From Siphonodentalium dalli (lineage: Eukaryota; Mollusca; Scaphopoda; Gadilida; Siphonodentaliidae), in assembly GCA_032622095.1 (NCBI GenBank), contig CP136066.1:47588911-47652910 (forward strand): DNA of 64,000 nucleotides, given 5' to 3'. Below, one piece after another: positions 15,879-40,340 of this stretch (positions within the stretch are counted from its first letter, which is position 1; every line of letters starts with the position of its first letter). Under the pieces are notes generated by a model. That model made no database searches. It had not been told where the DNA came from and saw nothing but the letters and a program-made list of their open reading frames with translations. A program made the translations under genes and the position numbers.

Positions 15879-16141
15879 TGATGATACCCCGCCCGTTTGG
15901 GGTCATTTCAGGAACGATAACTCTATTCGAAGTACATGACCTATTCCTCTGCAGTCCGCCCACGCATTGCATCATGGTCTATTTGTATGCCGGTTGTGCA
16001 TGTCCGGACATGACCCGCTGGTTATATCCAGACTTCTCCATATGAATGGTATATTATCTACAGGTATATCACATGATGATCTCGGTGGGGGTAGTTTCAG
16101 TCTTGAATATTAAAGGGATACTAGGCTCTCACGGGGGGGAT

Positions 16142-16232
16142 GATTGTGAAAGTGACACAAGGCACTCACTATGGATGAATGTTAAAGTAACACATGGCGC
16201 ACACTGTGGGATAATGTTAAAGTGACACTCGC
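16142..16232. repeat. subterminal 'TTAAAGTGACAC' repeats, left arm of A
   Basis: Three spaced copies of (a)tgttaaagt(g/a)acac(t/a) occur just inside the terminal ~260 bp. They are mirrored near 20,585-20,675 and in element B at 35,450-35,535 and 39,990-40,070. Subterminal repeats at both ends of a TIR element are typical candidate binding sites for the mobilising protein. Confidence 0.6.
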
Positions 16233-16410
16233 ATTGAAAACTTCCAAAAATTAAAACTTCAAAAATTTCAAAAACTTCAAAAATTTCAAAATCTTCACAT
16301 TTTTTAAAAACTTCAAAAATTTCAAAAATTTCAAAAACTTCAAAAATTTCAAAAACTTCAAAAACTTCACAAATTTCACAAATTTCACAAATTTCAAAAA
16401 ACTTCAAAAA
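16233..16410. repeat. 9-bp (TTCAAAAAN)n tract, left arm of A
   Basis: A tandem 9-bp unit of the form TTCAAAAAT/TTCAAAAAC runs for about 18 copies and has its mirror image at 20,405-20,575. The 9-bp period keeps several frames open and produces artificial (EIFEVF) or (KKFKNF) peptides. Confidence 0.85.
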
Positions 16411-16570
16411 TTAAACAAAATTCAGGATTTAGTCAAAAATATGGCTTGTTGCCATTCATCGGAAAGCTATGGGGGTACGGTGGTGAGCGCCACCGAAAAA
16501 AGCAAGTGAGCGAGGGAAAAAAGAGAAAAATAACATGACATGTGGTACATACTACAATTTATTATATTAA

Positions 16571-16774
16571 CTATTCACTGTCACTTTCGTCCGAATTGTC
16601 ATCACTTTCGTCAGATGTGTCATTTTTTTCGTCCATGAACTTTTCTAGCAATGGTCTGTACTTTAATATTGACATTTTCACTGCATCACGATCTTCAAAA
16701 CCATTCTTCATATATTTGTCCACTTTATCCACCGGCCTTTCAATAGCCTTCGAAAATTTAGGTAAATTACTCAT
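16571..16774 (-). CDS. small acidic-tailed protein, left copy in A
   Basis: A 67-residue protein beginning MSNLPKFSKAIERPVDK and ending in an acidic Ser/Asp/Glu tail (DESDDNSDESDSE). It is identical to the copies at 18,202-18,405 and 20,065-20,268. The function is not recognised. The start codon overlaps the stop of the upstream gene by ATGA, as in compact viral genomes. In this left copy the upstream gene is frameshifted. A truncated C-terminal part of the same gene survives in both arms of element B, where it follows the Bcl-2-like gene. Confidence 0.6.
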   Translation of the reverse strand: MSNLPKFSKAIERPVDKVDKYMKNGFEDRDAVKMSILKYRPLLEKFMDEKNDTSDESDDNSDESDSE

Positions 16775-16978
16775 TTTAGTTCAGTGAATATGTCGTCTGG
16801 AGTTTCCTTTTTAACTTTTCCAATGTTTGTCTTCTTCGCTCTTCCTCCTTTTATCTCTTTAACTTTTAGCTACGGGTTTCCTTATATCAGGTTTCGCTTC
16901 AGTCTTGGGTAGGTCCTTCGAGTCATCGTAGGGTACATATTTATTAAGATCAAAGTCATAATAGTACGGAGTCCCCAT
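16771..16978 (-). pseudogene. small basic protein gene, frameshifted left copy in A
   Basis: Same gene as 18,402-18,617 and 19,853-20,068. Near 16,867 it lacks 8 bases ('atcttctt' in the intact copies) and so loses the reading frame in the Lys-rich middle. The start (MGTPYYYDF) and the 3' end, including the ATGA overlap with the next gene, are retained. Confidence 0.75.
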
Positions 16979-17108
16979 TCCGGCTAAAGTTCAAAGTGTA
17001 CTCTGAAGTAGTAATTTTTATAGGCGCGAAATTACCATCCAAGACGTATACGTTGTTGTTGATACAAATGTCAATGCACTTATGAGTGATTTCAAAATGC
17101 ACACTCTA

Positions 17109-17277
17109 TTATATAGATATGTGTAACCTGGTGACATGATGAAATCCATTGTGTACTGAGTTGACCTCCGGCTTCGTGCCGATTGGGTACTGAGCTGACC
17201 AATGACTGCTATTGTATCTTTTGACAGATAAGTCTTTACTTTTCTTATGTTGTTGTTGTTGTTGTTGTTGTTGTTGC

Positions 17278-17308
<31 letters not shown>

Positions 17309-17369
17309 GCGGCGGCGGCGATGGTGCGATTGGCGCGGCGTGCGGTCCCTCTTCACACTTATACTTCAT
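17109..17369 (-). CDS. polyglutamine protein with truncated zinc-finger start (A)
   Basis: An 86-residue frame that begins MKYKCEE, the same start as the C2H2 zinc-finger protein of element B (MKYQCEEC). After the first half of the C-x2-C it switches to a Pro/Ala segment (GPHAAPIAPSPPP), about 20 glutamines and a basic/aromatic tail (KKSKDLSVKRYNSSHWSAQ). A TATA-like 'tatataaatatag' sits upstream on the minus strand at 17,412-17,424. It looks like a rearranged product in which the finger was replaced by repeat-rich sequence. The GC-rich junction sequence also occurs at the centre of element A. Function unknown; it may not be functional. Confidence 0.5.
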
Positions 17370-17411
17370 TTTCCTATATAATCAGTGAAATCGATCGTTC
17401 TTCTATACACC

Positions 17412-17424
17412 TATATTTATATAG
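17412..17424 (-). promoter_or_regulatory. TATA box upstream of the polyglutamine gene, left arm of A
   Basis: The minus strand reads tatataaatatag about 45 bases before the ATG at 17,369. The same spacing occurs at 19,400-19,412 and in element B. Confidence 0.55.
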
Positions 17425-17739
17425 AACAGAAACAAGGGAAAGTGGTGGACTAGTTCACTAGTTCAGGCTGTCATTCACAACGTCTCTTCGTGTTGTTTGT
17501 ACTGGATACAAATTTATCACATTGGCTACAATACAACCTACCCATCCAAATGTCAATGCAATTATGAGTGAGTTCAACATGCACACTCTATTATATAGAT
17601 ATGTGTAACCTGGTGACATGATGAAATCCATTGTGTACTGAGTTGACCTCCGGCTTCGTGCCGATTGGGTACTGAGCTGACCAATGACTGCTATTGTATC
17701 TTTTGACAGATAAGTCTTTACTTTTCTTACGCCGGGGGT

Positions 17740-17830
17740 GTTGTTGATGTTGTTGTTGCTGTTGATGTTGTTGCGGCGGCGGCTGATGGTGCTGTTGTTG
17801 TTGTTGTTGTTGTGGCTGCTGTTGTGGAGT
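17740..17830 (-). repeat. second CAG/CAA (polyglutamine) tract in left arm of A
   Basis: A duplicate of the polyQ module, interrupted by histidine and proline/alanine codons (gcggcggcggctgatggtg). Its 3' neighbour at 17,560-17,735 repeats the 17,080-17,240 sequence. The arm thus contains an internal ~480-bp tandem duplication. Confidence 0.7.
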
Positions 17831-18201
17831 TATTGTTCTTAGGTAAAAATGATGATACCCACCCTGTTTGCCCCCCCCCCAGATCAGGAACGATAACTCT
17901 AGCCGAAGTACACGACCTACATTCTCTGCAGTACTCCTGTTGGTGTTAGTCTAGACAGTTTGACCTATATTCTCCGCCCACGCGTCGGTTTATTTGTATA
18001 CCGGTTGGGTATGTCCAAAAAAATTCAAAAAACTTCAAAAATTAAACAAAATTAAGGATTTAGTCAAAAATATGGCTTGTTGCCATTCATCGGAAAGCTA
18101 TGGGGGTACGGTGGTGAGCGCCACCGAAAAAAGCAAGTGAGCGAGGGAAAAAAGAGAAAAATAACATGACATGTGGTACATACTACAATTTATTATATTA
18201 A

Positions 18202-18405
18202 CTATTCACTGTCACTTTCGTCCGAATTGTCATCACTTTCGTCAGAGGTGTCATTTTTTTCGTCCATGAACTTTTCTAGCAATGGTCTGTACTTTAATAT
18301 TGACATTTTCACTGCATCACGATCTTCAAAACCATTCTTCATATATTTGTCCACTTTATCCACCGGCCTTTCAATAGCCTTCGAAAATTTAGGTAAATTA
18401 CTCAT
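18202..18405 (-). CDS. small acidic-tailed protein, inner copy in A
   Basis: Identical 67-residue product to the copies at 16,571-16,774 and 20,065-20,268. Here the upstream gene is intact and the two overlap by ATGA (18,402-18,405), so a dicistronic transcript is plausible. An AATAAA signal (read on the minus strand as tttatt) follows within ~10 bases of the stop. The N-terminal half is predicted to be helical and charged; the C-terminus is acidic. No family recognised. Confidence 0.6.
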   Translation of the reverse strand: MSNLPKFSKAIERPVDKVDKYMKNGFEDRDAVKMSILKYRPLLEKFMDEKNDTSDESDDNSDESDSE

Positions 18406-18617
18406 TTTAGTTCAGTGAATATGTCGTCTGGAGTTTCCTTTTTAACTTTTCCAATGTTTGTCTTCTTCGCTCTTCCTCCTTTTATCTCTTTAACTTTTAT
18501 CTTCTTAGCTACGGGTTTCCTTATATCAGGTTTCGCTTCAGTCTTGGGTAGGTCTTTCGAGTCATCGTAGGGTACATATTTATTATGATCAAAGTCATAA
18601 TAGTACGGAGTCCCCAT
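18402..18617 (-). CDS. small basic protein, inner copy in A
   Basis: A 71-residue protein with an aromatic/acidic N-terminus (GTPYYYDFD) and a strongly Lys-rich C-terminal half, compatible with nucleic-acid binding. The segment KEIKGGRAKK contains I-K-G-G-R, which fits the adenovirus-type protease consensus (M/I/L)-x-G-G-x. That would be expected for a small virion core protein in a Maverick or adintovirus. This is inference from one five-residue match. It differs from the right-arm copy by one residue (H versus L at position 11). Confidence 0.55.
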   Translation of the reverse strand: MGTPYYYDFDHNKYVPYDDSKDLPKTEAKPDIRKPVAKKIKVKEIKGGRAKKTNIGKVKKETPDDIFTELK

Positions 18618-18967
18618 TCCGGCTAAAGTTCAAAGTGTACTCTGAAGTAGTAATTTTTATAGGCGCGAAATTACCATCCAAGACGTATACGTTGTTGTTG
18701 ATACAAATGTCAATGCAATTATGAGTGATTTCAAAATGCACACTCTATTATATAGATATGTGTAACCTGGTGACATGATGAAATCCATTGTGTACTGAGT
18801 TGACCTCCGGCTTCGTGCCGATTGGGTACTGAGCTGACCAATGACTGCTATTGTATCTTTTGACAGATAAGTCTTTACTTTTCTTACGCCGGGGGTGTTG
18901 TTGATGTTGTTGTTGTTGTTGTTGCTGTTGTTGTTGTTGTTGCGGCGATGGTGCGATTGGCGCGGCG

Positions 18968-18992
18968 GCAGTGTGGGGGTGAGGGGGCCGCA
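18968..18992. other. central spacer of element A
   Basis: This 25-bp asymmetric GC-rich sequence joins the two oppositely oriented arms. Arms match immediately outside it (ggcgcggcg / cgccgcgcc). Its reverse complement is nearly the same as the 31-bp spacer of element B (37,752-37,782). Confidence 0.8.
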
Positions 18993-19399
18993 CGCCGCGC
19001 CAATCGCACCATCGCCGCCGCCGCAACAACAACAATAACAACAACAGCAACAACAACAACAACAACAACAACAACATCAACAACACCCCCGGCGTAAGAA
19101 AAGTAAAGACTTATCTGTCAAAAGATACAATAGCAGTCATTGGTCAGCTCAGTACCCAATCGGCACGAAGCCGGAGGTCAACTCAGTACACAATGGATTT
19201 CATCATGTCACCAGGTTACACATATCTATATAATAGAGTGTGCATGTTGAAATCACTCATAATTGCATTGACATTTGGATGGGTAGGTTGTATTGTAGCC
19301 AATGTGATAAATTTGTATCCAGTACAAACAACACGAAGAGACGTTGTGAATGACAGCCTGAACTAGTGAACTAGTCCACCACTTTCCCTTGTTTCTGTT

Positions 19400-19412
19400 C
19401 TATATAAATATA
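19400..19412 (+). promoter_or_regulatory. TATA box, right arm of A
   Basis: The sequence tatataaatatag lies ~45 bases before the MKYKC start at 19,455. Confidence 0.55.
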
Positions 19413-19454
19413 GGTGTATAGAAGAACGATCGATTTCACTGATTATATAGGAAA

Positions 19455-19722
19455 ATGAAGTATAAGTGTGAAGAGGGGGCCGCACGCCGCGCCAATCGCA
19501 CCATCGCCGCCGCCGCAACAACAACAACAACAACAACAGCAACAACAACAACAACAACAACAACATCAACAACACCCCCGGCGTAAGAAAAGTAAAGACT
19601 TATCTGTCAAAAGATACAATAGCAGTCATTGGTCAGCTCAGTACCCAATCGGCACGAAGCCGGAGGTCAACTCAGTACACAATGGATTTCATCATGTCAC
19701 CAGGTTACACATATCTATATAA
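19455..19722 (+). pseudogene. polyglutamine/zinc-finger-start gene, frameshifted right copy in A
   Basis: It begins MKYKCEE as at 17,369, but the G run after codon 7 has one extra G (gagggggcc versus gagggacc). The frame leaves the Pro/Gln product and enters threonine/alanine codons. Slippage in a G run is the likely cause. The glutamine frame remains open downstream to 19,722. Confidence 0.6.
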
Positions 19723-19808
19723 TAGAGTGTGCATTTTGAAATCACTCATAATTGCATTGACATTTGTATCAACAACAACGTATACGTCTTGGATGGTAAT
19801 TTCGCGCC

Positions 19809-19816
19809 TATAAAAA
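19809..19816 (+). promoter_or_regulatory. TATA box of the small basic protein gene
   Basis: TATAAAAA, 44 bases upstream of the ATG at 19,853. The same motif precedes the copies in the other arms. Confidence 0.65.
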
Positions 19817-19852
19817 TTACTACTTCAGAGTACACTTTGAACTTTAGCCGGA

Positions 19853-20068
19853 ATGGGGACTCCGTACTATTATGACTTTGATCTTAATAAATATGTACCC
19901 TACGATGACTCGAAGGACCTACCCAAGACTGAAGCGAAACCTGATATAAGGAAACCCGTAGCTAAGAAGATAAAAGTTAAAGAGATAAAAGGAGGAAGAG
20001 CGAAGAAGACAAACATTGGAAAAGTTAAAAAAGAAACTCCAGACGACATATTCACTGAACTAAAATGA
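19853..20068 (+). CDS. small basic protein, right copy in A
   Basis: A 71-residue product with the composition described for 18,402-18,617. The start is supported by the TATA box at 19,809 and the absence of any upstream in-frame ATG between them. Its stop overlaps the next ATG (ATGA at 20,065-20,068). Confidence 0.6.
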   Translation: MGTPYYYDFDLNKYVPYDDSKDLPKTEAKPDIRKPVAKKIKVKEIKGGRAKKTNIGKVKKETPDDIFTELK

Positions 20069-20268
20069 GTAATTTACCTAAATTTTCGAAGGCTATTGAA
20101 AGGCCGGTGGATAAAGTGGACAAATATATGAAGAATGGTTTTGAAGATCGTGATGCAGTGAAAATGTCAATATTAAAGTACAGACCATTGCTAGAAAAGT
20201 TCATGGACGAAAAAAATGACACATCTGACGAAAGTGATGACAATTCGGACGAAAGTGACAGTGAATAG
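20065..20268 (+). CDS. small acidic-tailed protein, right copy in A
   Basis: A 67-residue product, the second gene of the overlapping pair. It is followed 7 bases after the stop by AATAAA. Unchanged in sequence among three copies in A, which is consistent either with recent arm duplication or with constraint. The function is not recognised. Confidence 0.6.
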   Translation: MSNLPKFSKAIERPVDKVDKYMKNGFEDRDAVKMSILKYRPLLEKFMDEKNDTSDESDDNSDESDSE

Positions 20269-20275
20269 TTAATAT

Positions 20276-20281
20276 AATAAA
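20276..20281 (+). terminator. polyadenylation signal AATAAA
   Basis: It lies directly after the stop of the gene pair. The downstream T-rich stretch 'tttttctctttttcccc' could serve as the downstream element. The hairpin-forming 'ggtggcgctcaccacc' follows near 20,344. Confidence 0.6.
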
Positions 20282-20404
20282 TTGTAGTATGTACCACATG
20301 TCATGTTATTTTTCTCTTTTTCCCCTCGCTCACTTGCTTTTTTCGGTGGCGCTCACCACCGTACCCCCGTAGCTTTCCGATGAATGGCAACAAGCCATAT
20401 TTTT

Positions 20405-20575
20405 GACTAAATCCTGAATTTTGTTTAATTTTTGAAGTTTTTTGAAATTTGTGAAATTTTGAATTTTTTGAAGTTTTTGAAATTTTTGAAATTTTTGAAG
20501 TTTTTAAAAAATGTGAAGATTTTGAAATTTTTGAAGTTTTTGAAATTTTTGAAGTTTTAATTTTTGGAAGTTTTC
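20405..20575. repeat. 9-bp repeat tract, right arm of A
   Basis: Mirror image of 16,233-16,410 (ttttgaaatttttgaag phrases). Confidence 0.85.
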
Positions 20576-20942
20576 AATGCGAGTGTCACTTTAACATTAT
20601 CCCACAGTGTGCGCCATGTGTTACTTTAACATTCATCCATAGTGAGTGCCTTGTGTCACTTTCACAATCATCCCCCCCGTGAGAGCCTACTATCCCTTTA
20701 ATATTCAAGACTGAAACTACCCCCACCGAGATCATCATGTGATATACCTGTAGATAATATACCATTCATATGGAGAAGTCTGGATATAACCAGCGGGTCA
20801 TGTCCGGACATGCACAACCGGCATACAAATAGACCATGATGCAATGCGTGGGCGGACTGCAGAGGAATAGGTCATGTACTTCGAATAGAGTTATCGTTCC
20901 TGAAATGACCCCAAACGGGCGGGGTATCATCAATTAAATGTT

Positions 20943-20948
20943 CATACT
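20943..20948. repeat. target-site duplication of element A, right copy
   Basis: The hexamer attaaa directly follows the element end TCATCA and leads back into host sequence tgttcatactc. Confidence 0.93.
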
Positions 20949-21565
20949 CAACCAAATCACAGATGCAGCTAAAGCCAAAATAATACTTTAAAACACACAT
21001 GGTGTTTGTTTTATTTGTGTTGCCGATATCAGTAAATCCTTCAGAGGGAATATGTACGAATGGCGTTTCTATCTTTAAGGAGCAAACGTTTATACATGTA
21101 TATTTCGTTTTTATTTACCAACTCGGTCGATTATTCATATATGGCAAGAAACGTGAGCAAAAAGTTAAGGGGTATGTTTTTGTCTCATGTATAAAGCCTT
21201 GATACAAAGCGGGACAAGCGTTACAAAAGCTGATAAAAGATATTTTATTTCCCATCGTTATCTGCGTCCCATGCAGTAGTAACCCTTGATTCAGAGCGAT
21301 ACAAGCGATACATAATCTTATAGAGGTGATTTTATTTATCATCGTTATCTGCGTCCCAGTAGTAACCCTTGATACAGAGCGATACAAGCGTTACAGAATC
21401 TTATATAAAGATGGTTTTATTTCAAGAATTAGATAGTCTTATCAGTGTAGATAGTTGACGCATGTCAGGGTCAAAACGTGTACCTCATCCCCGGAATTAG
21501 ACCGCGGTGTTTACAATGAACGTGAACATAAATACAAAAGTCGATATTTCTATAATTGATAAAAA
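20949..21565 (+). repeat. host repeat block, upstream copy, 3' part
   Basis: It matches 29,350-30,135 and 40,573-41,297. It includes three ~85-bp tandem units (21,237-21,410: 'cgttatctgcgtcccagtag', 'acccttgatacagagcgata'). The other two copies have five such units. It is interrupted at about 21,565 by a 2.9 kb insert that the 30,135 junction lacks. Confidence 0.8.
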
Positions 21566-21707
21566 CAAGACAGTCAAAGACTGTGGGGTCGCTCAACAGA
21601 CTGCAAAGACTGATGAGACTGGGACTCTGGAGACCACGATAGTCAGAACTTTTCATAAGCACTTTGAAAAAAGTAGATCTAAACACGATATGTGGCTAGA
21701 GAGGCTT

Positions 21708-21773
21708 CAGTAGTGTACAGTGGGTAATTTCAAGGTAAATATCCACCATGAAATTGCCCACTGTTCACTACTG
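21708..21773. repeat. hairpin with 25-bp arms
   Basis: The arms 21,708-21,732 and 21,749-21,773 (cagtagtgtacagtggg...) are complementary except at two positions and are separated by a 16-nt loop. Confidence 0.9.
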
Positions 21774-23035: not shown

Positions 23036-23441
23036 GTCTGACTTTTGCAGAATGAGGTCACTAAAGGGTTAATTTAGTGCTGCAATCCTGTAAGGTGGGC
23101 TAGCATCACAAAATTCACCCTCTGTGGACCTCATTATGCTTAGGCCTCAACTGCCATGGGAGACATAGGAACAGATTGAAGTTGTCCAGTTAATTGTTGA
23201 TGTGCACCCATTGGGCACTTCAATTATCAATTTTATCTTATGACAGCAAATTAGGGAATATAGAAACTGAACAGAAGGGAAAAAGTAAGTAGAAATGTCA
23301 ATTTAAGACCTGTATACTTCCCTGAAGATGAGGCCTAAGCAGAATGAGGTCCCTGGAGAGTGTATTTGGTGATGCTAGCCTACTGTGCAGAGTAGCATCA
23401 CTAAATTCACCCTCTGGGGACCTCATTCTGCAAATGTCAGA
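23036..23441. mobile_element. foldback MITE with four-fold inverted structure
   Basis: The outer arms, about 120 bp each (from gtctgacttttgcagaatga to its complement ttctgcaaatgtcagac), are inverted repeats. Each arm itself contains two inverted copies of a ~37-bp core, so four copies alternate in orientation near 23,047, 23,103, 23,340 and 23,395. There is no coding capacity. Confidence 0.75.

Positions 23442-23831: not shown

Positions 23832-23837
<6 letters not shown>

Positions 23838-23864
<27 letters not shown>
23838..23864. repeat. poly-A tract
   Basis: About 27 A in a row. It could be a retrotransposon tail, but no element body was identified upstream. Confidence 0.7.
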
Positions 23865-23867
<3 letters not shown>

Positions 23868-27440: not shown

Positions 27441-29639
27441 CTCGTGTTCGTTATTATATTATATACACTTTATAGTGTGTTTTCAGAACGAAAATAAATT
27501 GAATAAAATCAACAAATTTGTAAATTTAAAAACAATTCAAACGTTGTTGTATTCCATGTCCCAGCCCGGACATATACACCAAATTTCAATAATATTCATT
27601 GAGAAACAACGGACCAAACGCTATATAACACCCGTATACATCTTTTATTCCGAATCGGACTCGGGTACATGTTATAGTAGGTACCGAATTGACACACGTC
27701 GACTGGGCGAGTTGGCCATGGGGCGATTAGGCCGATTCCGGGACATTCTATAATTTACCGTATGTATCCGTTTACGCGTAGTTTACTTTAGAAAGTTCCG
27801 CAATTAATACCGTAAATAGAGCGACCTTATTTGACAGAGAATGCCTCTGTTATTGATTATCAAGTTACTGTACATTAAAAACGACAAATTCACATGCTCG
27901 TTCAAGCGCAGTAGGCTATTTTCCCCATGTTAAAGGACATCCACAAATACTAAATAACGCTAACCTACTGCCGAATGTTTGACACGACAACTGTTAACAT
28001 ATTTGGGCTGAATTCATCTGACGCGGTATTATTCCTCAAAATAAACAACAAAACCATCGTTACTTGGAAATGTAGTTTGGGCTAACATTTACATAAATCC
28101 TCCAGATCAATTATCCGACACACACGTCAGATGAAAAAGTCACATGAAGTAACCGGCCAAATTGGCCGAAATAACAAAGCGGGATTGATTATAAGCTGGT
28201 AACGAGACAGATAGAGTAATGTCCCATTGACTGCAATCTGTAAAAGCAAAACAATTAAGCCCCACAAGGTGTACCAGCATGTACATAAACACACTATATA
28301 ACTTCAAAGCAAATCTGTATATCAATGAAAGTGGCAATGACGCTCTAGTTCAATTTGGATAGAGATAATGTCATGCATTACTGTCAAAAGGGCAGGGTCT
28401 GCGCTGGACCAAATTCACTTTTGCCAAATAAGTTGCCAATTGAAAATATGTTTTGTAAAATTATTTTAGCATTTGCCAAATGCTATCCCGATAGTATCAT
28501 TTTCTTCAACCTTTTGAAGCGAATTATTCTGGTAAAGAACTATTCGCGTACTCTGACCGACTTAGAGCACAATTTATCCCACATAATGCAATCAACTGGA
28601 AATGAGCCGTTGGTCGTGTTTTGACCACGATGCACCACCCGTGCGCTGGCCGCGATTTGACACAATATCCGGTTAGCCACGCCCAACAAAGTGATTAACA
28701 TGAACTGATCGCCGTTGAATGTCAATAGATATGTCCGAAACAACACGAACTGGTCCCACTTTAAAGCACCCGTGCGATTTGTCTCTTATGAGTTGCGTAT
28801 ACCTAACAATAGGATAATCGCTGAACTATTCCTTCGCCAGCCTTGAGAATTGGTGTGCTTTACCAAAAATCAGGGGCCAATTGTAACAATGGGATTGTGC
28901 TCTAATTAATGTTATCTCTATATGAGTCATAGGCCATGAAAAATAAAAACACTTACAACAACATTATTTTGAACTCTGCGGCTATAGGTGCTGTAAAATC
29001 CGAAGATATACAACAACATGCCTATGTCCACTTATTAGGAAAATTATTGTCAAAATTAAAAAGAAACACGACCGTCATAAACAACATCCTTCCACTTGGT
29101 GTATTGATCTCAATTGTCTTGTCACATATATTCACTGCTTCCCGTAGGCCTTAACACTTTGTCATGGTTTCAATACAATGATCATGGCATAACATTATGT
29201 GGTTAATATCACGGGAGCAGTAGAAGATTCCGAAGTTTACGGTCATTTCACAATTTAAAGGTGTGAGTGAGGATAAACGTCTTCTGATCATGGGGAAGGA
29301 AATTTATACGGATTGTAGACGCCTGAATTTGTAAATGTCATACATTAAATGTTCATACTCAACCAAATCACAGATGCAGCTAAAGCCAAAATAATACTTT
29401 AAAACACACATGGTGCTTGTTTTATTTGTATTGCCGATATCAGTAAATCCTTCAGAGGAATATGTACGAATGGTGTTTCTATCTTTAAGGAGCAAACGTT
29501 TATATATTTCGTTTTTATTTACCAACTTGGTCGATTATTCATACATGGCAAGAAACGTGAGCAAAAAGTTAAGGGGTATGTTTTTGTCCCATGTAGAAAG
29601 CATTGATACAAAGCGGGACAAGCGTTACAAAAGCTGATA

Positions 29640-33100: not shown

Positions 33101-35186
33101 AACGTTGTTGTATTCCATGTCCCAGCCCGGACATATACACCAAATTTCAATAATATTCATTGAGAAACAACGGACCAAACGCCATATAACACCCCGTAAG
33201 CATCTTTTATTCCGAGTTGGCCTTTTATTCCGAATTGGCACGCGCCATTGGAGCGAGTTAGCCATGGGGCGAGTACGCCGATTCCGACACCTTTTCTATT
33301 TGCAGCAGGTTAAGTTTACGCGTAATTTAATTTACAAAGTTCCCCAATTGGTATCGTAAATAGAGCGACCTTATTTGACAGAGAATGCCTATGTTATTGA
33401 TTATAAAGTTGCTATACATTAAAAACGACAATTCACATGCTCGTTCAAGCGCAGTAGTCTATTTTCCCCATGTTAAAGGACATCCACAAATACTAAATAA
33501 CGCTAACTTACTGCCGAATGTTTTACACGACAACTGTTAACATATTTGGGCTGAATTCATCTGACGCGGTATTATTCCTCAAAATAAACAACAAAACCAT
33601 CGTTACTTGGAAATGTAGTTTGGGCTAACATTTACATAAATCCTCCATATCATTATTCCGACACACACGTCAGATGAAAAACTCACATGAAGTAACCGGC
33701 CAAATTGGCCGAAATAACATAGCGGCATTGATTATATAAGCTGGTAACGATACAGATAGAGTAACGTCTCATTGACTGCAATTTGTAAAAGCAAAACAAT
33801 AAAGCCCCATAAGGCGTGCCAGCATGTAACTAAACACACTATATAACTTCAAAGCAAATCTGTATATCAATGAAAGCGGCAATGACGCTCTAGTTCAATT
33901 TGGATAGAGATAATGTCATGCATTACTGTCAAAAGGGCAGGGTCTGCGCTGGACCAAAATTCACTTTTGCCAAATAAATTGCCAATTGAAAATATGTTTT
34001 GTCAAATTATTTTAGCATTTGCCAAATGCTATCCCTGATAGTATCATTTTCTTCAACCTTTTGAAGAGAATTATTCTGGTAAAGAACTATTCGCGTACTC
34101 TGACCGACTTAGAGCACAATTTATCCCACATAATGATATCAACTGGAAATGTGCCGTTGGTCGTGTTTTGACCACGATGCACTACCCGTGCGCTGGCCGC
34201 GATTGGACACAATATCCGGTTAGCCACGCCCAACAAAGTGATTAACATGAACTGATCGCCGTTGAATGTGAATAGATATGTCTGAAACAACACGAACTGG
34301 TCCCACTTTAAAGCACCGTGCGATTTGTCTGTTATGAGTTCCGTATGCCTAACAATAGGATAATCGCTGAACTATTCCTTCGCCAGCCTTGAGAATTGGT
34401 GTGCTTTACCAAAAATCAGGGGACAATTGTAACAATGGGATTGTGCTCTAATTAATGTTATCTCTATATGAGTCATAGGCCATGAAAAATAATAACACTT
34501 ACAACAAAATTATTTTGAACTCTGCGGCTATAGGTGCTCTAAAATCCGAATATATACAACAACATGCCTATGTCCACTTATTAGGAAAATTATTGTCAAA
34601 ATTAAAAAGAAACACGACCGTCATAAACACCATCCTTCCAAGAAGGACTATATATAATTGGTGATACGTAATGCAAACTTGTTGAAAATTGGCATAATCA
34701 TTTGTTTTGATTGACTAAATTTCTGTTGACTGGAAATACGTCAGCAGTGATTGTATGGAAACCAAACTCTTCATTTGTAACCACATATTAAACTGTCTTG
34801 CCATAGATATGGGCCTGACATGGAATAGTGTTTGTTGTCATAGCTTGTTTAAATTTCCACCATCAGTTAAGTTTACAAGGCCATAGAAGAGACTCCCCTC
34901 AAAACACGGTCAGCATGGCTACTATATATGCATGTGATGATGATAATGCAGGTCGCACTTAAATGAGGTCAAATCTTAGAAAATCATGCTTTTCGGGAAA
35001 TTGTCAACCTTTTCGATCATTATGGATATAATAATGTCAACACCAAATCGTTGAGCTATCGTCCGAATATATACAACAACATGCCTATGTCCACTTATTA
35101 GGAACATTATTGTCAAAATTAAAAAGAAACACGACCGTCATAAACAACATCCTTCCACTTGGTGTATTGATCTCAATTGTCTTGTC
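30141..35186 (+). repeat. segmental duplication unit 2, part before element B
   Basis: Direct repeat of unit 1. Relative to unit 1 it has an extra ~510 bp. The segment 34,640-35,060, also present inverted at 14,525-14,950, is flanked by two copies of a ~95-bp sequence ('atatacaacaacatgcctat', 34,546-34,640 and 35,062-35,157). It is interrupted by element B at 35,187. Confidence 0.85.
35181..35186. repeat. target-site duplication of element B, left copy
   Basis: cttgtc, directly before TGATGATACC. The uninterrupted host reads 'aattgtcttgtcacatata' at 29,113-29,130. Confidence 0.93.
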
Positions 35187-35309
35187 TGATGATACCCACC
35201 CCAGTTGGGGTTATTTCAGGAACGATAACTCTATCCGACTTTTACTCCGCAGTACATGGAGTTTGACCTATATTCTCCGCCCACGCGTCGGTCTATTTGT
35301 ATACCGGTT

Positions 35310-35329
35310 GGACATGTCCGGACATGACC
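35310..35329. promoter_or_regulatory. p53-family response-element-like site in terminal repeat of B
   Basis: Two adjacent decamers, GGACATGTCC and GGACATGACC, match the p53 half-site RRRCWWGYYY at 10 of 10 and 9 of 10 positions with zero spacer. The mirror copy is at 40,198-40,217. In element A the first decamer is weaker (GTGCATGTCC). Binding is inference. Confidence 0.4.
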
Positions 35330-35539
35330 CGCTGGTTATATCCAGATTTCTCCATATGAATGGTATATTATCTACATGTATATCACGTGATGATCTCGGT
35401 GTAGTAGCTTCAGTCTTGAATATTAAAGGGATACTAGTCTCTCACGGGGGATGATTATTAAAGTGACACTCACTATGGATGAATGTTAAAGTAACACATG
35501 GCGCACACTGTGGGATAATGTTAAAGTGACACTCGCATT

Positions 35540-35760
35540 GAAAACTTCCAAAAAGTTCAAAAAGGTCAAAAAGTTCAAAAAGTTCAAAAAGTTCAAAAAG
35601 TTCAAAAATTTCAAAAAGTTCAAAAATTTCAAAAAGTTCACAAAAATTTCAAAAACTTACAAAATTTCAAAAATTTCGAAAAACTTCAAAAACTTCACAA
35701 ATTTCACAAATTTCACAAATTTCGCAAATTTCAAAAAACTTCAAAAATTAAACAAAATTC
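35540..35760. repeat. 9-bp repeat tract, left arm of B
   Basis: Tandem 9-mers TTCAAAAAG/TTCAAAAAT and variants, mirrored at 39,775-39,985. The lysine/phenylalanine-periodic frames here are artefacts of the 9-bp period. Confidence 0.85.
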
Positions 35761-35863
35761 AGGATTTAGTCATAAATGTGACCCGCTATATCAAATCCAG
35801 TCGGAAGTCGGGATTTTTTTTATCCTGTGCCAATGCATTCTCTTATCTATGCGAGTCGACCAG

Positions 35864-35871
35864 CCGCCCGC

Positions 35872-35918
<47 letters not shown>

Positions 35919-36003
35919 TGTAATGCGCATGTCAACGCCGCGCCGCCGGCGGCGGCGGCAACTACATAATCCTATGGCATGCAAAGAAATTGGCGGCGGC
36001 GGT
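35864..36003. repeat. GC-rich cassette 1, left arm of B
   Basis: A (GGC)n run of ~15 units, then 'gtaatgcgcatgtcaacgcc', more GGC, a unique ~35-bp insert and again GGC. It ends at 'ggttaaggatttagtca'. Its mirror is at 39,531-39,664. The 'gcgcatgtcaacgccgcgcc' core is shared with cassette 2. Confidence 0.8.
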
Positions 36004-36014
36004 TAAGGATTTAG

Positions 36015-36200
36015 TCAGTGATGATACTGTTGTTGTTGTTGTTGTTGGTGTTGTTGGTGTTGTTGTTGTTGTTGTGGCTGATGATACTGTTGTTGTTGTT
36101 GTTGTTGTTGTTCTGAAGGCGTGTGTTTAACTTTGATATGACGCTTCAAACTATCTTGCCAAGCATAGACACTTAAGCACTCTTCACATTGATACTTCAT
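36015..36200 (-). CDS. C2H2 zinc-finger polyglutamine protein, left copy in B
   Basis: A 61-residue protein. Residues 5-26 form one complete C2H2 finger, C-x2-C-x12-H-x4-H (C5, C8, H21, H26). A Gln/His-rich tail runs to the end (residues ~31-61). The stop TGA lies inside the boundary motif TGACTAAATCC. A TATA box precedes it by ~45 bases. A DNA- or RNA-binding regulator is plausible, with the glutamine tail a possible activation or aggregation domain. Element A carries a gene with the same start but without the finger. The product is identical in both arms of B. Confidence 0.65.
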   Translation of the reverse strand: MKYQCEECLSVYAWQDSLKRHIKVKHTPSEQQQQQQQQYHQPQQQQQHQQHQQQQQQQYHH

Positions 36201-36241
36201 TTTCCTATATAATCAGTGAAATCGAGCGTTCTTCTATGCAC

Positions 36242-36254
36242 CTATATTTATATA
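36242..36254 (-). promoter_or_regulatory. TATA box of the zinc-finger gene, left arm of B
   Basis: The minus strand reads tatataaatatag, ~45 bases upstream of the ATG at 36,200. It mirrors 39,280-39,292. Confidence 0.55.
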
Positions 36255-36281
36255 GAACAGAAACAAGCGTAACGTGGTGGA

Positions 36282-36482
36282 CTAGTTAACTAGTTCAGGC
36301 TGTCGTTCACAACGTCTCTTAGTGTTGTTTGTACTGGATACAAATTTATCACATTGGCTACAATACAACCTACCTATCCAAATGTCAATGCAATTATGAG
36401 TGAATTCAATATGAGAGTATATATATAAGCATTTGTATCGACATCTCGTGAATCTATCGAAATATCTTACTTCTCTTTCCAA
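36282..36482 (-). CDS. 66-residue Cys-containing ORF, left copy in B
   Basis: Starts MEREVRYFDRF and contains a C-x2-C near the C-terminal half (LYCSQCDKF) and a further Cys in KRRCERQ. It ends just upstream of the zinc-finger gene promoter, on the same strand. The C-terminal part is conserved in element A (17,460-17,560 and 19,254-19,349), but there a C-to-T change makes a stop (cga to tga) and the N-terminal part is different. It may be a degenerate zinc-binding exon or an upstream part of the finger gene. Confidence 0.4.
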   Translation of the reverse strand: MEREVRYFDRFTRCRYKCLYIYSHIEFTHNCIDIWIGRLYCSQCDKFVSSTNNTKRRCERQPELVN

Positions 36483-36650
36483 ATTGCGTAATAATTATGT
36501 TGAGGTTCAGTGGGTACGTCCGATATATCCAGCTGAAGGCAGAATGGACAATTGCTTCCTCTGATGTACAGTTAGTTTGAATCAGTAAACATATGCACAT
36601 GATTGTGTCTGTGCAACTTGAAACAATACAATTAAAATCTGGTCGTTTTC

Positions 36651-36716
36651 GGCGGCGGCCGTAATGCGCATGTCAACGCCGCGCCGCCGGCGGCGGCGGC
36701 GGCGGCGGCGGCGGTT
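36651..36716. repeat. GC-rich cassette 2, left arm of B
   Basis: GGC runs flanking 'gtaatgcgcatgtcaacgcc', ending in 'ggttaaggatttagtca'. Mirror at 38,820-38,884. Confidence 0.8.
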
Positions 36717-36851
36717 AAGGATTTAGTCACAAATATGGCTTGTTTCCATTCATCGGAAAACTATGGGGGTAAGGTGGTGAGCGCCACCGAAAAAAGCAAG
36801 TGAGCGAGGGAAAAAAGAGAAAAATAACATGACAAGTGGTACATAGTACAA

Positions 36852-36857
36852 TTTATT
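36852..36857 (-). terminator. polyadenylation signal, left arm of B
   Basis: TTTATT on the plus strand (AATAAA on the minus strand), directly after the end of the acidic-tail remnant. It would serve transcripts of the Bcl-2-like gene. Confidence 0.5.
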
Positions 36858-36864
36858 ATATTAA

Positions 36865-36961
36865 CTATTCACTGTCACTTTCGTCCGAATTGTCATCACT
36901 TTCGTCAGATGTGTCATTTGTTTCGTCCATGAACTTTTCTAGCAATGGTCTGTACTTTAAT
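36865..36961 (-). pseudogene. 3' remnant of the acidic-tailed gene, left arm of B
   Basis: Only the last ~32 codons (from LKYRPLLEKF to the acidic tail) remain. The 5' part is replaced by a TA microsatellite and the Bcl-2-like gene. The complete 67-codon gene is at 20,065-20,268. Confidence 0.8.
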
Positions 36962-36995
36962 ATATATATATATATATATATACACACAATTGATA

Positions 36996-37607
36996 TTAAT
37001 ATGTTTGCCAATAATTTACACATCCATGAATCGATCTGAAAACATTATGGTTCATTGTCAACATTTTTGACGAGTAGTTGTCAATATTTAGACATTCCTG
37101 GAAGAAATTATCCCAACTGCCTTCCCGTTCGACCCATTGGTCAGTGTATAATGTCACGATAGTGTGTGCCCATTGCACAATTTCGCTGACCAATGAGAAG
37201 TCGTTGTCTTTGTATGCTTTTAAACACATTTTTCCTGTGAACAGGAATGCAGCCATTATTCTCTCCCATGTGTAGGGGCCATCTTCCCGAAATATATTGT
37301 CCAACAAGTCACTAAATATATAGGGAAAATGATCCCTATCGTAATTGTCCAATTTCCCTGTCAGCTCATTTAACAGCCACATGTTATAATTTTCCAGCTG
37401 TTGAAGTATTCTTCTTGTGCAGTCACGTATTTCATCTAACTCTGATAAATAAAAGTTATTAGTGTCTGGGTAATGAAAGCCGTTTCTCAGAATGATATGC
37501 CTGACATAACTTTTCATCAAATATTTCGTAACTGCGCCAACTTCCATACTGTTCAATTTCTTGAGCTGTGTATCCATTATTATTTTTTTCCCTTCTACGT
37601 CAGACAT
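36996..37607 (-). CDS. Bcl-2-family apoptosis regulator, left copy in B
   Basis: A 203-residue, intron-free protein. A BH4-like helix lies at residues 28-47 (KYLMKSYVRHIILRNGF). The BH1 region is at 104-123 (NIFREDG, then TWERIMAAFLF; W114 matches the conserved Trp of the NWGR motif). BH2 is at 158-169 (WVEREGSWDNFF). Order and spacing match the Bcl-2 fold. No C-terminal hydrophobic anchor is seen, so a cytosolic or peripherally bound protein is expected. Family members control mitochondrial outer-membrane permeabilisation; viral homologues usually block apoptosis. A single uninterrupted frame beside viral-style genes favours a captured gene. Pro- versus anti-apoptotic action cannot be read from the sequence. 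Confidence 0.8.
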   Translation of the reverse strand: MSDVEGKKIIMDTQLKKLNSMEVGAVTKYLMKSYVRHIILRNGFHYPDTNNFYLSELDEIRDCTRRILQQLENYNMWLLNELTGKLDNYDRDHFPYIFSDLLDNIFREDGPYTWERIMAAFLFTGKMCLKAYKDNDFSLVSEIVQWAHTIVTLYTDQWVEREGSWDNFFQECLNIDNYSSKMLTMNHNVFRSIHGCVNYWQTY

Positions 37608-37634
37608 AAAATATCAACAGTCCCTTTATTATGT

Positions 37635-37651
37635 TGAGTCAGCTAACCAAT
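37635..37651 (-). promoter_or_regulatory. AP-1-like and CCAAT motifs upstream of the Bcl-2-like gene, left arm
   Basis: The plus strand shows TGAGTCA (37,635-37,641) and CCAAT (37,647-37,651). They lie ~30-45 bases upstream of the minus-strand ATG at 37,607, with a TATA-like 'cataataaag' between. Confidence 0.4.
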
Positions 37652-37751
37652 CAAAATGCATGATATTAACGTGTTCCGACATGTTTCATTTCTAATTTTA
37701 GATGTTAAATGTGCCGACATTGTTCTTTGTTGTTGTAAAAAAATTGGCGCG

Positions 37752-37782
37752 CGTGCGGCCCCCATCACCCCCTCACTGCCGC
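37752..37782. other. central spacer of element B
   Basis: A 31-bp asymmetric sequence between the flanks ggcgcg and cgcgcc. Its reverse complement matches the spacer of element A except for an A/T difference and a 2-base indel. Confidence 0.8.
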
Positions 37783-37882
37783 CGCGCCAATTTTTTTACA
37801 ACAACAAAGAACAATGTCGGCACATTTAACATCTAAAATTAGAAATGAAACATGTCGGAACACGTTAATATCATGCATTTTG

Positions 37883-37910
37883 ATTGGTTAGCTGACTCAA
37901 CATAATAAAG
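37883..37910 (+). promoter_or_regulatory. promoter-like motifs of the Bcl-2-like gene, right arm
   Basis: ATTGG (inverted CCAAT, 37,883-37,887), TGACTCA (AP-1 consensus, 37,893-37,899) and a TATA-like 'cataataaag' (37,901-37,910) precede the ATG at 37,927. The leader would be very short. Confidence 0.4.
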
Positions 37911-37926
37911 GGACTGTTGATATTTT

Positions 37927-38538
37927 ATGTCTGACGTAGAAGGGAAAAAAATAATAATGGATACACAGCTCAAGAAATTGAACAGTATGGAAGTTGGCGC
38001 AGTTACGAAATATTTGATGAAAAGTTATGTCAGGCATATCATTCTGAGAAACGGCTTTCATTACCCAGACACTAATAACTTTTATTTATCAGAGTTAGAT
38101 GAAATACGTGACTGCACAAGAAGAATACTTCAACAGCTGGAAAATTATAACATGTGGCTGTTAAATGAGCTGACAGGGAAATTGGACAATTACGATAGGG
38201 ATCATTTTCCCTATATATTTAGTGACTTGTTGGACAATATATTTCGGGAAGATGGCCCCTACACATCGGAGAGAATAATGGCTGCATTCCTGTTCACAGG
38301 AAAAATGTGTTTAAAAGCATACAAAGACAACGACTTCTCATTGGTCAGCGAAATTGTGCAATGGGCACACACTATCGTGACATTATACACTGACCAATGG
38401 GTCGAACGGGAAGGCAGTTGGGATAATTTCTTCCAGGAATGTCTAAATATTGACAACTACTCGTCAAAAATGTTGACAATGAACCATAATGTTTTCAGAT
38501 CGATTCATGGATGTGTAAATTATTGGCAAACATATTAA
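37927..38538 (+). CDS. Bcl-2-family apoptosis regulator, right copy in B
   Basis: A 203-residue product identical to the left copy except for serine in place of tryptophan at residue 114 (tcg versus tgg), in the most conserved position of BH1. BH4-like, BH1 and BH2 regions are otherwise intact and no C-terminal membrane anchor is seen. If the family pattern applies, this copy could be weakened in partner binding. It could also be a sequencing or assembly difference. It is followed by a TA tract, the remnant of the acidic-tailed gene and an AATAAA signal at 38,677. Confidence 0.78.
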   Translation: MSDVEGKKIIMDTQLKKLNSMEVGAVTKYLMKSYVRHIILRNGFHYPDTNNFYLSELDEIRDCTRRILQQLENYNMWLLNELTGKLDNYDRDHFPYIFSDLLDNIFREDGPYTSERIMAAFLFTGKMCLKAYKDNDFSLVSEIVQWAHTIVTLYTDQWVEREGSWDNFFQECLNIDNYSSKMLTMNHNVFRSIHGCVNYWQTY

Positions 38539-38572
38539 TATCAATTGTGTGTATATATATATATATATATAT

Positions 38573-38669
38573 ATTAAAGTACAGACCATTGCTAGAAAAG
38601 TTCATGGACGAAACAAATGACACATCTGACGAAAGTGATGACAATTCGGACGAAAGTGACAGTGAATAG
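38573..38669 (+). pseudogene. 3' remnant of the acidic-tailed gene, right arm of B
   Basis: Mirror of 36,865-36,961. It is in the same orientation as the Bcl-2-like gene and downstream of it. Confidence 0.8.
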
Positions 38670-38676
38670 TTAATAT

Positions 38677-38682
38677 AATAAA
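38677..38682 (+). terminator. polyadenylation signal AATAAA, right arm of B
   Basis: Nine bases after the stop of the remnant and the first AATAAA downstream of the Bcl-2-like gene. The 3' sequence 'tttttctcttttttccctcg' matches that of element A. Confidence 0.55.
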
Positions 38683-38819
38683 TTGTACTATGTACCACTT
38701 GTCATGTTATTTTTCTCTTTTTTCCCTCGCTCACTTGCTTTTTTCGGTGGCGCTCACCACCTTACCCCCATAGTTTTCCGATGAATGGAAACAAGCCATA
38801 TTTGTGACTAAATCCTTAA

Positions 38820-38884
38820 CCGCCGCCGCCGCCGCCGCCGCCGCCGGCGGCGCGGCGTTGACATGCGCATTACGGCCGCCGCCG
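38820..38884. repeat. GC-rich cassette 2, right arm of B
   Basis: It starts after 'tgactaaatcctta' with (CCG)n, then 'ggcgcggcgttgacatgcgc' and CCG again. Confidence 0.8.
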
Positions 38885-39051
38885 AAAACGACCAGATTTT
38901 AATTGTATTGTTTCAAGTTGCACAGACACAATCATGTGCATATGTTTACTGATTCAAACTAACTGTACATCAGAGGAAGCAATTGTCCATTCTGCCTTCA
39001 GCTGGATATATCGGACGTACCCACTGAACCTCAACATAATTATTACGCAAT

Positions 39052-39252
39052 TTGGAAAGAGAAGTAAGATATTTCGATAGATTCACGAGATGTCGATACA
39101 AATGCTTATATATATACTCTCATATTGAATTCACTCATAATTGCATTGACATTTGGATAGGTAGGTTGTATTGTAGCCAATGTGATAAATTTGTATCCAG
39201 TACAAACAACACTAAGAGACGTTGTGAACGACAGCCTGAACTAGTTAACTAG
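39052..39252 (+). CDS. 66-residue Cys-containing ORF, right copy in B
   Basis: Identical to the product at 36,282-36,482. It has a C-x2-C pair and a Lys/Arg-rich end. It lies 80 bases upstream of the zinc-finger gene on the same strand. No family recognised. Confidence 0.4.
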   Translation: MEREVRYFDRFTRCRYKCLYIYSHIEFTHNCIDIWIGRLYCSQCDKFVSSTNNTKRRCERQPELVN

Positions 39253-39279
39253 TCCACCACGTTACGCTTGTTTCTGTTC

Positions 39280-39292
39280 TATATAAATATAG
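39280..39292 (+). promoter_or_regulatory. TATA box of the zinc-finger gene, right arm of B
   Basis: tatataaatatag, about 42 bases before the ATG at 39,334. This spacing suits a short 5' leader. Confidence 0.6.
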
Positions 39293-39333
39293 GTGCATAG
39301 AAGAACGCTCGATTTCACTGATTATATAGGAAA

Positions 39334-39519
39334 ATGAAGTATCAATGTGAAGAGTGCTTAAGTGTCTATGCTTGGCAAGATAGTTTGAAGCGTCATATCA
39401 AAGTTAAACACACGCCTTCAGAACAACAACAACAACAACAACAACAGTATCATCAGCCACAACAACAACAACAACACCAACAACACCAACAACAACAACA
39501 ACAACAGTATCATCACTGA
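39334..39519 (+). CDS. C2H2 zinc-finger polyglutamine protein, right copy in B
   Basis: A 61-residue product identical to 36,015-36,200, with one full C2H2 finger (C5, C8, H21, H26) followed by a Gln/His tail encoded by CAA/CAG repeats. The stop lies within TGACTAAATCC, and GC-rich cassette 1 begins directly afterwards. The start is fixed by the TATA box at 39,280. Confidence 0.65.
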   Translation: MKYQCEECLSVYAWQDSLKRHIKVKHTPSEQQQQQQQQYHQPQQQQQHQQHQQQQQQQYHH

Positions 39520-39530
39520 CTAAATCCTTA

Positions 39531-39615
39531 ACCGCCGCCGCCAATTTCTTTGCATGCCATAGGATTATGTAGTTGCCGCCGCCGCCGGCGGCGCGGCGTT
39601 GACATGCGCATTACA

Positions 39616-39656
<41 letters not shown>

Positions 39657-39664
39657 GGGCGGCT
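39531..39664. repeat. GC-rich cassette 1, right arm of B
   Basis: (CCG)n with 'ggcgcggcgttgacatgcgc' core and a ~35-bp AT-richer insert. Mirror of 35,864-36,003. Confidence 0.8.
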
Positions 39665-39774
39665 GGTCGACTCGCATAGATAAGAGAATGCATTGGCACA
39701 GGATAAAAAAAATCCCGACTTCCGACTGGATTTGATATAGCGGGTCACATTTATGACTAAATCCTGAATTTTGT

Positions 39775-39985
39775 TTAATTTTTGAAGTTTTTTGAAATTT
39801 GCGAAATTTGTGAAATTTGTGAAATTTGTGAAGTTTTTGAAGTTTTTCGAAATTTTTGAAATTTTGTAAGTTTTTGAAATTTTTGTGAACTTTTTTGAAA
39901 TTTTTGAACTTTTTGAAATTTTTGAACTTTTTGAACTTTTTGAACTTTTTGAACTTTTTGACCTTTTTGAACTTTTTGGAAGTTT
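39775..39985. repeat. 9-bp repeat tract, right arm of B
   Basis: Mirror image of 35,540-35,760. Confidence 0.85.
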
Positions 39986-40340
39986 TCAATGCGAGTGTCA
40001 CTTTAACATTATCCCACAGTGTGCGCCATGTGTTACTTTAACATTCATCCATAGTGAGTGTCACTTTAATAATCATCCCCCGTGAGAGACTAGTATCCCT
40101 TTAATATTCAAGACTGAAGCTACTACACCGAGATCATCACGTGATATACATGTAGATAATATACCATTCATATGGAGAAATCTGGATATAACCAGCGGGT
40201 CATGTCCGGACATGTCCAACCGGTATACAAATAGACCGACGCGTGGGCGGAGAATATAGGTCAAACTCCATGTACTGCGGAGTAAAAGTCGGATAGAGTT
40301 ATCGTTCCTGAAATAACCCCAACTGGGGTGGGTATCATCA

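Follow-up and report, generated by a model that had tools for sequence, protein, structure and literature searches.

The window analyzed here, a stretch of 64,000 nucleotides from the scaphopod mollusc Siphonodentalium dalli (GCA_032622095.1, contig CP136066.1, positions 47,588,911 to 47,652,910), holds two insertions of about 5 kb, A and B, which are probably integrated, non-autonomous palindromic satellites of a Polinton/Maverick virus with (TGA)2...(TCA)2 ends. Their boundaries, target-site duplications (TSDs) and empty sites are as follows:

15873..15878: TSD ATTAAA, left flank of A
15879..20932: element A, composite palindrome of 5054 bp with TGATGATACC...GGTATCATCA ends
20933..20938: TSD ATTAAA, right flank of A
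29118..29123: empty site of B, single CTTGTC
29343..29348: empty site of A, single ATTAAA; another at 40566–40571
35181..35186: TSD CTTGTC, left flank of B
35187..40340: element B, near-perfect palindrome of 5154 bp with TGATGATACC...GGTATCATCA ends
40341..40346: TSD CTTGTC, right flank of B

The host unit is present as duplicated copies in the window, and a three-unit alignment displays uninterrupted sites of both elements, the unit carrying A itself having an uninterrupted version of B's site with one base different. Thus, A and B are true insertions. All four of their outer ends fit the terminal pattern TGATGATACC..GGGGT, for which shuffles expect 0 matches. The original prediction had described two palindromes with perfect 6-bp duplications and with empty sites for both; the empty sites are indeed there, and both duplications are exact once the right end of A is corrected from 20,942 to 20932. 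The palindromic structure holds for B, which is near-perfect, but not for A, which has only partial arms and an extra internal terminus. Within the two elements the following features can be discerned:

16237..16410: 9-bp tandem repeat, left arm of A
17850..18020, plus strand: copy of the terminus inside A (TGATGATACCCACCCTG...), with a similar internal terminus in other family members
18956..19004, minus strand: 49-bp GC-rich hairpin core of A (element positions 3078–3126), between the arms of an inner palindrome and 575 bp from the midpoint of A
19853..20068, plus strand: small open reading frame (ORF) MGTPYYYDFD... in A, whose counterpart in a 22-kb element directly precedes a capsid-like gene
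20065..20268, plus strand: ORF MSNLPKFSKAIER... in A
20427..20574: 9-bp tandem repeat, right arm of A
35541..35749: 9-bp tandem repeat, left arm of B
36015..36200, minus strand: mirror copy of the C2H2/polyglutamine (polyQ) ORF, at the mirror position in the palindrome of B
36996..37607, minus strand: Bcl-2 homologue of 203 amino acids (aa), left arm of B, one residue different from the right copy
37743..37791, plus strand: hairpin core at the centre of B, 4 bp from its midpoint, common to A and other members
37927..38538, plus strand: Bcl-2 homologue, 203 aa, right arm of B (PF00452, 45.4 bits, cut-off 31.4)
39334..39519, plus strand: C2H2-like finger and polyQ ORF, 61 aa, right arm of B, with a beginning similar to the 590-aa ATPase-type gene in other members
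39779..39978: 9-bp tandem repeat, right arm of B

With the centre excluded, three differences separate the arms of B: a substitution, a 1-base indel and an 8-base indel in a GCG repeat. The outer arms of A match at 97% over 1.9 kb, and these partial arms, together with the third terminus at 17850, mark A as a composite. Common to both is the 49-bp central core, which forms a GC-rich hairpin whose loop is rich in C. The ORF at 20065..20268 resembles the capsid-like gene of the 22-kb element at its start and the 590-aa ATPase-type gene of other members at its end; a Pfam scan of the mirror copy of the MGTPYYYDFD... ORF (18405–18617) gave no match, and every Pfam zinc-finger match of the C2H2-like/polyQ ORF of B fell below the cut-off. 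The Bcl-2 domain is recognized by Pfam both in B and in L012 (51 bits), one of the related elements introduced below, and the right-arm protein of B also matches Bcl-xL chains (E 2.5e-7, chain E). Among the loci examined, the gene recurs whole in L012 (99.3%), partially in L007 (99.2%) and partially in both arms of L015 (100%). Giant planarian retrotransposons have likewise been described as carrying a BCL2-like motif (PMC6431247).

No complete Polinton core replication or capsid gene is found among the ORFs of A or B, which are thus derivatives rather than Polintons themselves. The absence of core genes noted in the original prediction is therefore right for these two elements but not entirely for their family, in which ATPase genes, capsid-gene starts and PolB ends are present. 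When viral contigs were scanned with the MGTPYYY protein, the Bcl-2 protein or a capsid alignment, nothing useful was matched; a terminal 17-mer gave four matches, none of which aligns to A or B over more than 23 bp. Elsewhere in the window (54233–63635) lies a 4.7-kb direct duplication of 97.6% identity with long 58-bp satellite arrays.

Across the assembly that holds the window (2.23 Gb in 9 contigs), the terminal pattern occurs 202 + 198 times (400 ends), against 1 + 1 for the reversed control. The pairing of ends rests on 100 of the 400 positions (C1, C2 and part of C3), from which adjacent ends yield 39 pairs among the matches listed: 24 of 1.8–7.1 kb, 12 of 14.0–14.4 kb and single pairs of 10.2, 22.0 and 35.4 kb. 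Among the 24 short pairs, at least two (in L014 and L005) are not whole elements because the pair uses an internal terminus. Twenty stretches around terminal matches were extracted, 13 of them with both ends (L005–L015, L022 and L023, the terminal bases being variant in L008 and L012), and these with A and B form the set of 15 short elements. The TSD was scored in 18 elements—the same 15, one 14-kb element, the 22-kb element and the 10-kb element—with L016–L021 and L024 left out because their recognized outer end or its flank is missing. It is exactly 6 bp in 16 of the 18, and the other two agree at 5 of 6 bases, which bears out across the copies the duplication length originally claimed; none of the 18 matches at length 5 or 7, nor when shifted by 1–3 bases.

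Two further patterns were seen in these stretches. At C7:100219631 (L018) and C7:100229533 (L019), two family ends stand in mirror orientation with an identical host flank, an arrangement suggestive of an inverted duplication of the surrounding host DNA. In A (at 17850), L005, L006, L009, L010, L011 and L014, the terminus TGATGATACC recurs internally, directly after taaaaa, at 1.97 kb from an outer end in A and about 2.9–3.0 kb in the other six; a similar TTCTTAGRTA..AAA stretch precedes several centres, as if an arm end were able to join either a terminus or the hairpin.

The link to Polintons comes from the 22.0-kb element at C2:61122551-61144561, which has TGATGATACC ends, inverted over 110 bp at 94.5% identity, and the TSD GACGAC. 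Its single examined copy, read as five separate pieces amounting to about 17 of the 22 kb, bears two converging gene modules with an integrase, parts of PolB, an ATPase and capsid-like genes. The rve domain of the integrase (PF00665, 43.3 bits, cut-off 32.6) is accompanied by homologues of TBP (55.1 bits; L044 869–1378, minus strand) and PC4 (49.3 bits; L040 545–1054, minus strand), both above the cut-off, and we know of no other Polinton with this set. The N part of PolB remains below the cut-off for PF03175 (15.7 bits), and a short PolB-like C end was recognized by eye. The A32-like ATPase also falls below the cut-off on Pox_A32 (16.2 bits), but can be placed among the A32/FtsK-type packaging ATPases through its 36% identity (E 1e-36) to the ATPase of L027, which belongs to a second Polinton read as L027–L029 and itself scores 30.5 bits on Pox_A32, above the cut-off. 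The 414-aa capsid-like protein, so labeled by eye and place and a candidate for the double jelly-roll major capsid protein, shares 30% identity with a protein of L027 that was likewise named by eye; the small ORF MGTPYYYD.. lies directly before its gene, and a shorter penton-like ORF was recognized by eye. A 556-aa ORF has no Pfam match, and no Pfam match to an adenain-type protease was found among the ORFs of the pieces read, about 5 kb of the element lying outside them. A retrotransposon separates the 556-aa ORF from the N part of PolB; it has 632-bp direct repeats, DUF1759, an aspartyl protease and DUF5641, and from that domain set we take it to be of the BEL/Pao type.

Nine of the 15 short elements (A, L005, L006, L009–L011, L013, L014 and L022) share DNA with the 22-kb element around the start of its capsid-like gene, at 87–96% over 334–376 bp (260 bp for one arm of L014). 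The Polinton/Maverick assignment first made from the TSD and inverted repeats is thus supported by ends, 6-bp TSD and genes alike, and a same-ended element with core genes, which that assignment had led one to look for, exists. An unrelated transposase or another TSD length, either of which had been named as speaking against the assignment, was not encountered among the elements examined.

Palindromy extends well beyond A and B, to members of 5–8 kb and to a 14-kb class. Six of the 15 short elements (B, L009, L010, L011, L013 and L015) align end to end with their own reverse complement at 95.9–99.6%, while L014, L008 and A have inverted arms of 1.9–3.7 kb, L005, L006 and L012 are partly rearranged and the arms of L007, L022 and L023 measure just 380–664 bp. 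A 14-kb element (C2:74193240-74207244, read in two pieces) has arms of 6863 bp that are 99.93% identical and, with low-complexity frames excluded, no ORF longer than 101 aa; where 1.5 kb of both arms was compared, four 14-kb loci are only 0–3 substitutions apart. PolB-end frames of the L015 type are paired −/+ with a constant 180-bp spacing at eight loci, and from this spacing and an identity of 87–100%, the seven besides L015, the sole one read, probably share its palindrome junction. The recurrent junction and the near-identical 14-kb copies indicate that the palindromes multiply as palindromes.

The arms of one element also tend to be more alike than the elements are to each other. In the outer 2.5 kb, the two arms differ by 0.04% in L009, 0.28% in L010, 0.56% in L014, 0.69% in L011 and 2.9% in L013, against 2.1–6.9% between elements and 2.1–3.9% among L009, L010 and L014 themselves (ranges that exclude the rearranged and poorly aligned right arms of L005 and L006, 17–41% from the rest, and the closer pair L010 and L011 discussed below). 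In the terminal 600 bp, the arms are nearer to each other than to any other element in 11 of the 15, and of the variable columns in five ATPase-type elements, 160 have equal arms in all five and 81 an arm mismatch in some. The arms of the L009 type code for a protein of about 590 aa, in which polyQ and an A32-type ATPase (26.5 bits, cut-off 22.8) lie between two C2H2 fingers, with 29% identity to the ATPase of the 22-kb element and 33% to that of L027.

The hairpin core is found at 91–100% over at least 35 positions in 10 of the 15 short elements (A, B, L005, L007–L010 and L012–L014), and in the other five (L006, L011, L015, L022 and L023) it is absent or reduced to 14 bp. Its distance from the midpoint is at most 20 bp in B, L009, L010 and L013 and 111 bp in L014, and the adjoining DNA is inverted over at least 239 bp in six (A, B, L005, L009, L010 and L013). 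A 20-base core pattern occurs genome-wide in 131 + 95 (226) copies, the reversed control in none. The exact core is present in 14 of the 39 end pairs among the matches listed, including 10 of the 12 listed pairs of the ~14-kb class, where the distance to the midpoint is at most 1.5 bp for eight cores and 19 and 82.5 bp for the other two. C1 and C2 together have 48 centres, 35 of them outside the listed pairs; a non-random choice of eight of these 35 (six on C1 and two on C2) revealed inverted arms at every one, extending over the full 1.2 kb in six, about 560 bp in one and 300 bp in another. The exact core is absent from the 22-kb element and from the L027–L029 Polinton, the core list for C2 being complete.

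This second Polinton, around C2:24618575-24634711, has a PolB in a 1282-aa frame, the A32 ATPase mentioned above, a chromodomain ORF (29.4 bits) that by eye looks like the end of an integrase, further ORFs likewise judged capsid-like by eye, an adenain-like protein in L029 below the cut-off (17.1 bits) and inverted ends of 402 bp, 96% alike and of the AGAGTGG type. It shares 99.2% identity with L015 over 1.0 kb per arm and 98.8–99.1% with L008 over 0.8 kb. As a parent of the palindromes it was rejected, its own inverted ends beginning with AGAGTGGCC. Since the ends differ, L008 and L015 are better seen as chimeras holding its kind of DNA, such that palindromes with TGATGATACC ends acquired DNA from a different Polinton. 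The PolB C end of L015 also has 33% identity over 82 aa to yet another PolB (L025). Between PolB and the ATPase, a protein of about 200 aa (MDGIDVLPAEM...) is encoded in L008 (4261–4872), L015 (3680–4276) and L027 (252–833), for which no Pfam match rises above the cut-off. Genome-wide, PF03175 has 149 matches, 69 of 1596 candidates having been scored, mostly in open frames of about 952 aa and less often in frames of about 1312–1330 aa; given this abundance of type B polymerase genes, several Polinton lineages may have been recently active.

In light of these patterns, a mechanism can be sketched in which the snap-back step and the hairpin replication are inferred. The Polinton integrase would insert the palindromic elements, as follows from the ends and TSD they have in common with the 22-kb Polinton, and a protein-primed PolB would copy them in trans from the TGATGATACC end. 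The displaced strand would then fold at the central hairpin, the first arm serving as template for the second, such that the palindrome is regenerated and its arms are kept alike; pieces of genes (Bcl-2, ATPase, PolB and capsid fragments) may enter the arms by template switching or recombination. Copying of one arm from the other through a hairpin agrees with the common central hairpin, with palindromes being propagated as such and with arms that resemble each other. Repeated terminal units are tied to the sliding back of protein-primed replication, with which the (TGA)2 ends would, by analogy, fit.

Several observations weigh against seeing A and B as palindromic Polinton satellites that arise in this way. 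The core is lacking in two palindromes, L011 and L015, as is the exact core in 25 of the 39 listed end pairs; it is more than 400 bp from the midpoint in A, L005, L007, L008 and L012, and the inversion adjoining it spans just 95 bp in L012 and 25 bp in L008, is displaced in L014 and missing in L007. That the core is not always the centre of the palindrome has slightly lowered our confidence, from a level that was itself only a little higher. In four of the 15 elements (L007, L011, L022 and L023), some other element is closer to the arms over the terminal 600 bp than the arms are to each other, the divergence of L010 from L011 is just 0.6–1.0% over 2.5 kb, close to the 0.7% between the arms of L011, and the arms of L013 are 2.9% apart; gene conversion could also cause the likeness of arms. 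The support from the 22-kb type comes from one copy, seen over about 17 of 22 kb and with a retrotransposon inside, whose PolB is seen as an N part and a C end with the middle outside the pieces read, and for whose 414-aa capsid-like protein neither Pfam nor PDB gave a match and the predicted model is too poor for use (predicted local distance difference test score 39.8). B and the 22-kb element, moreover, have just their ends in common, at 80–87% identity.

Among the competing explanations, that of one-off snap-back defective genomes holds that each palindrome formed separately by a fold-back at a favoured place in a replicating Polinton, was integrated once and remained a dead end. Protein-primed linear elements do have precedents for this, with Vierula and Bertrand having reportedly described in 1992 (cited in PMC11071308) a hairpin deletion derivative of the protein-primed linear element kalilo, and the arms vary from palindrome to palindrome as it would have them. 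However, the constant spacing of PolB ends at eight loci and the four near-identical 14-kb palindromes speak for propagation after formation, and the exact hairpin core is missing from both the 22-kb element and the L027–L029 Polinton, which makes a purely one-off origin distinctly improbable. Of the snap-back idea, there thus remains the status of defective Polinton derivatives, but not their being one-off products only, as some were amplified as palindromes and many have a hairpin that the 22-kb element lacks. Alternatively, the satellites might be moved as double-stranded DNA by the Polinton integrase, with chromosomal gene conversion rather than hairpin replication keeping the arms alike. 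Arms of palindromes frequently convert each other, and both the divergence of the arms of L013 and the four elements with termini no more alike within than between would accord with this; yet conversion alone explains neither a conserved hairpin among unrelated arms nor 99.93% arm identity over 6.9 kb, and we hold this account to be unlikely.

Long inverted arms with internal tandem repeats would also be explained by an ordinary DNA transposon of the foldback type that has a cut-and-paste transposase, e.g., Ginger2 or GingerRoot. GingerRoot has 6-bp TSDs and TA..TA or occasionally TG..CA ends (PMC10045372), with which TG..CA and 6 bp taken alone are compatible, and Ginger2 has 6-bp targets with RTATAY preferred (PMC2836005). 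However, Ginger ends are given there as TGTNR (PMC2836005) as opposed to TGATGA here, none of the 18 TSDs matches RTATAY, and the sole long element examined with these ends is a Polinton, the genes of which are contrary to GingerRoot and largely refute the whole explanation, leaving it very improbable. Perfect palindromes are also a known artefact of long reads, in which mirrored reads are assembled into false ones, but the host DNA differs on the two sides with one TSD, the arms bear differences of their own and like structures recur at many loci, such that hardly any credence is left for this cause.

The reading of A and B as palindromic Polinton satellites can be taken further to a tentative proposal, about which we are almost evenly divided: that they are self-perpetuating hairpin replicons, with a genome of a single arm, closed at one end by the conserved GC-rich hairpin and at the other protein-primed and recognized by the integrase. 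Their self-complementary strands would be replicated by Polinton enzymes and integrate as palindromic dimers in hundreds of copies, pirating genes from two Polinton families, and some would carry a Bcl-2 that could keep the cell alive. Polintons are regarded as viruses or as self-synthesizing transposons, and the presence in one genome of a full-type element, of nearly identical 14-kb copies and of a fixed hairpin at the centre makes protein-primed and hairpin replication testable in an animal nucleus. This set also suggests a path by which perfect palindromes enter chromosomes, and provides a case of a Bcl-2 gene traveling with virus-like DNA. Polinton satellites multiplying as palindromes were not found in the literature searched, outside which most subscription journals lie.

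A parallel might be drawn with several known systems. With the Polintons/Mavericks themselves (Polintoviricetes; adintoviruses), the family shares a 6-bp TSD and a short repeated terminal unit, (TGA)2 here and (AGT)2//(ACT)2 or (AG)3 in vertebrate Mavericks, likewise with 6-bp TSDs (PMC8097293). In contrast to these, no complete set of core genes is present in A, B or the other palindromes, which are mirror-image structures of 1.4–14 kb, many of them built around one hairpin. The derivatives of kalilo of Neurospora and of the killer plasmids are likewise hairpin or duplex deletion forms of a protein-primed element, but are mitochondrial or cytoplasmic, whereas those described here are integrated in the nucleus, many with one central hairpin, and have hundreds of ends. 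The snap-back defective genomes of adenoviruses similarly have one genome end duplicated head to head, but to our knowledge neither integrate nor form an amplified lineage. Finally, foldback transposons such as Drosophila FB, Galileo and Tm1 parallel the family in their very long, internally repeated inverted arms and non-autonomous copies; Galileo and Tm1 are reportedly linked to P-element and Mutator transposons, whereas the ends here are those of a Polinton with an rve integrase.

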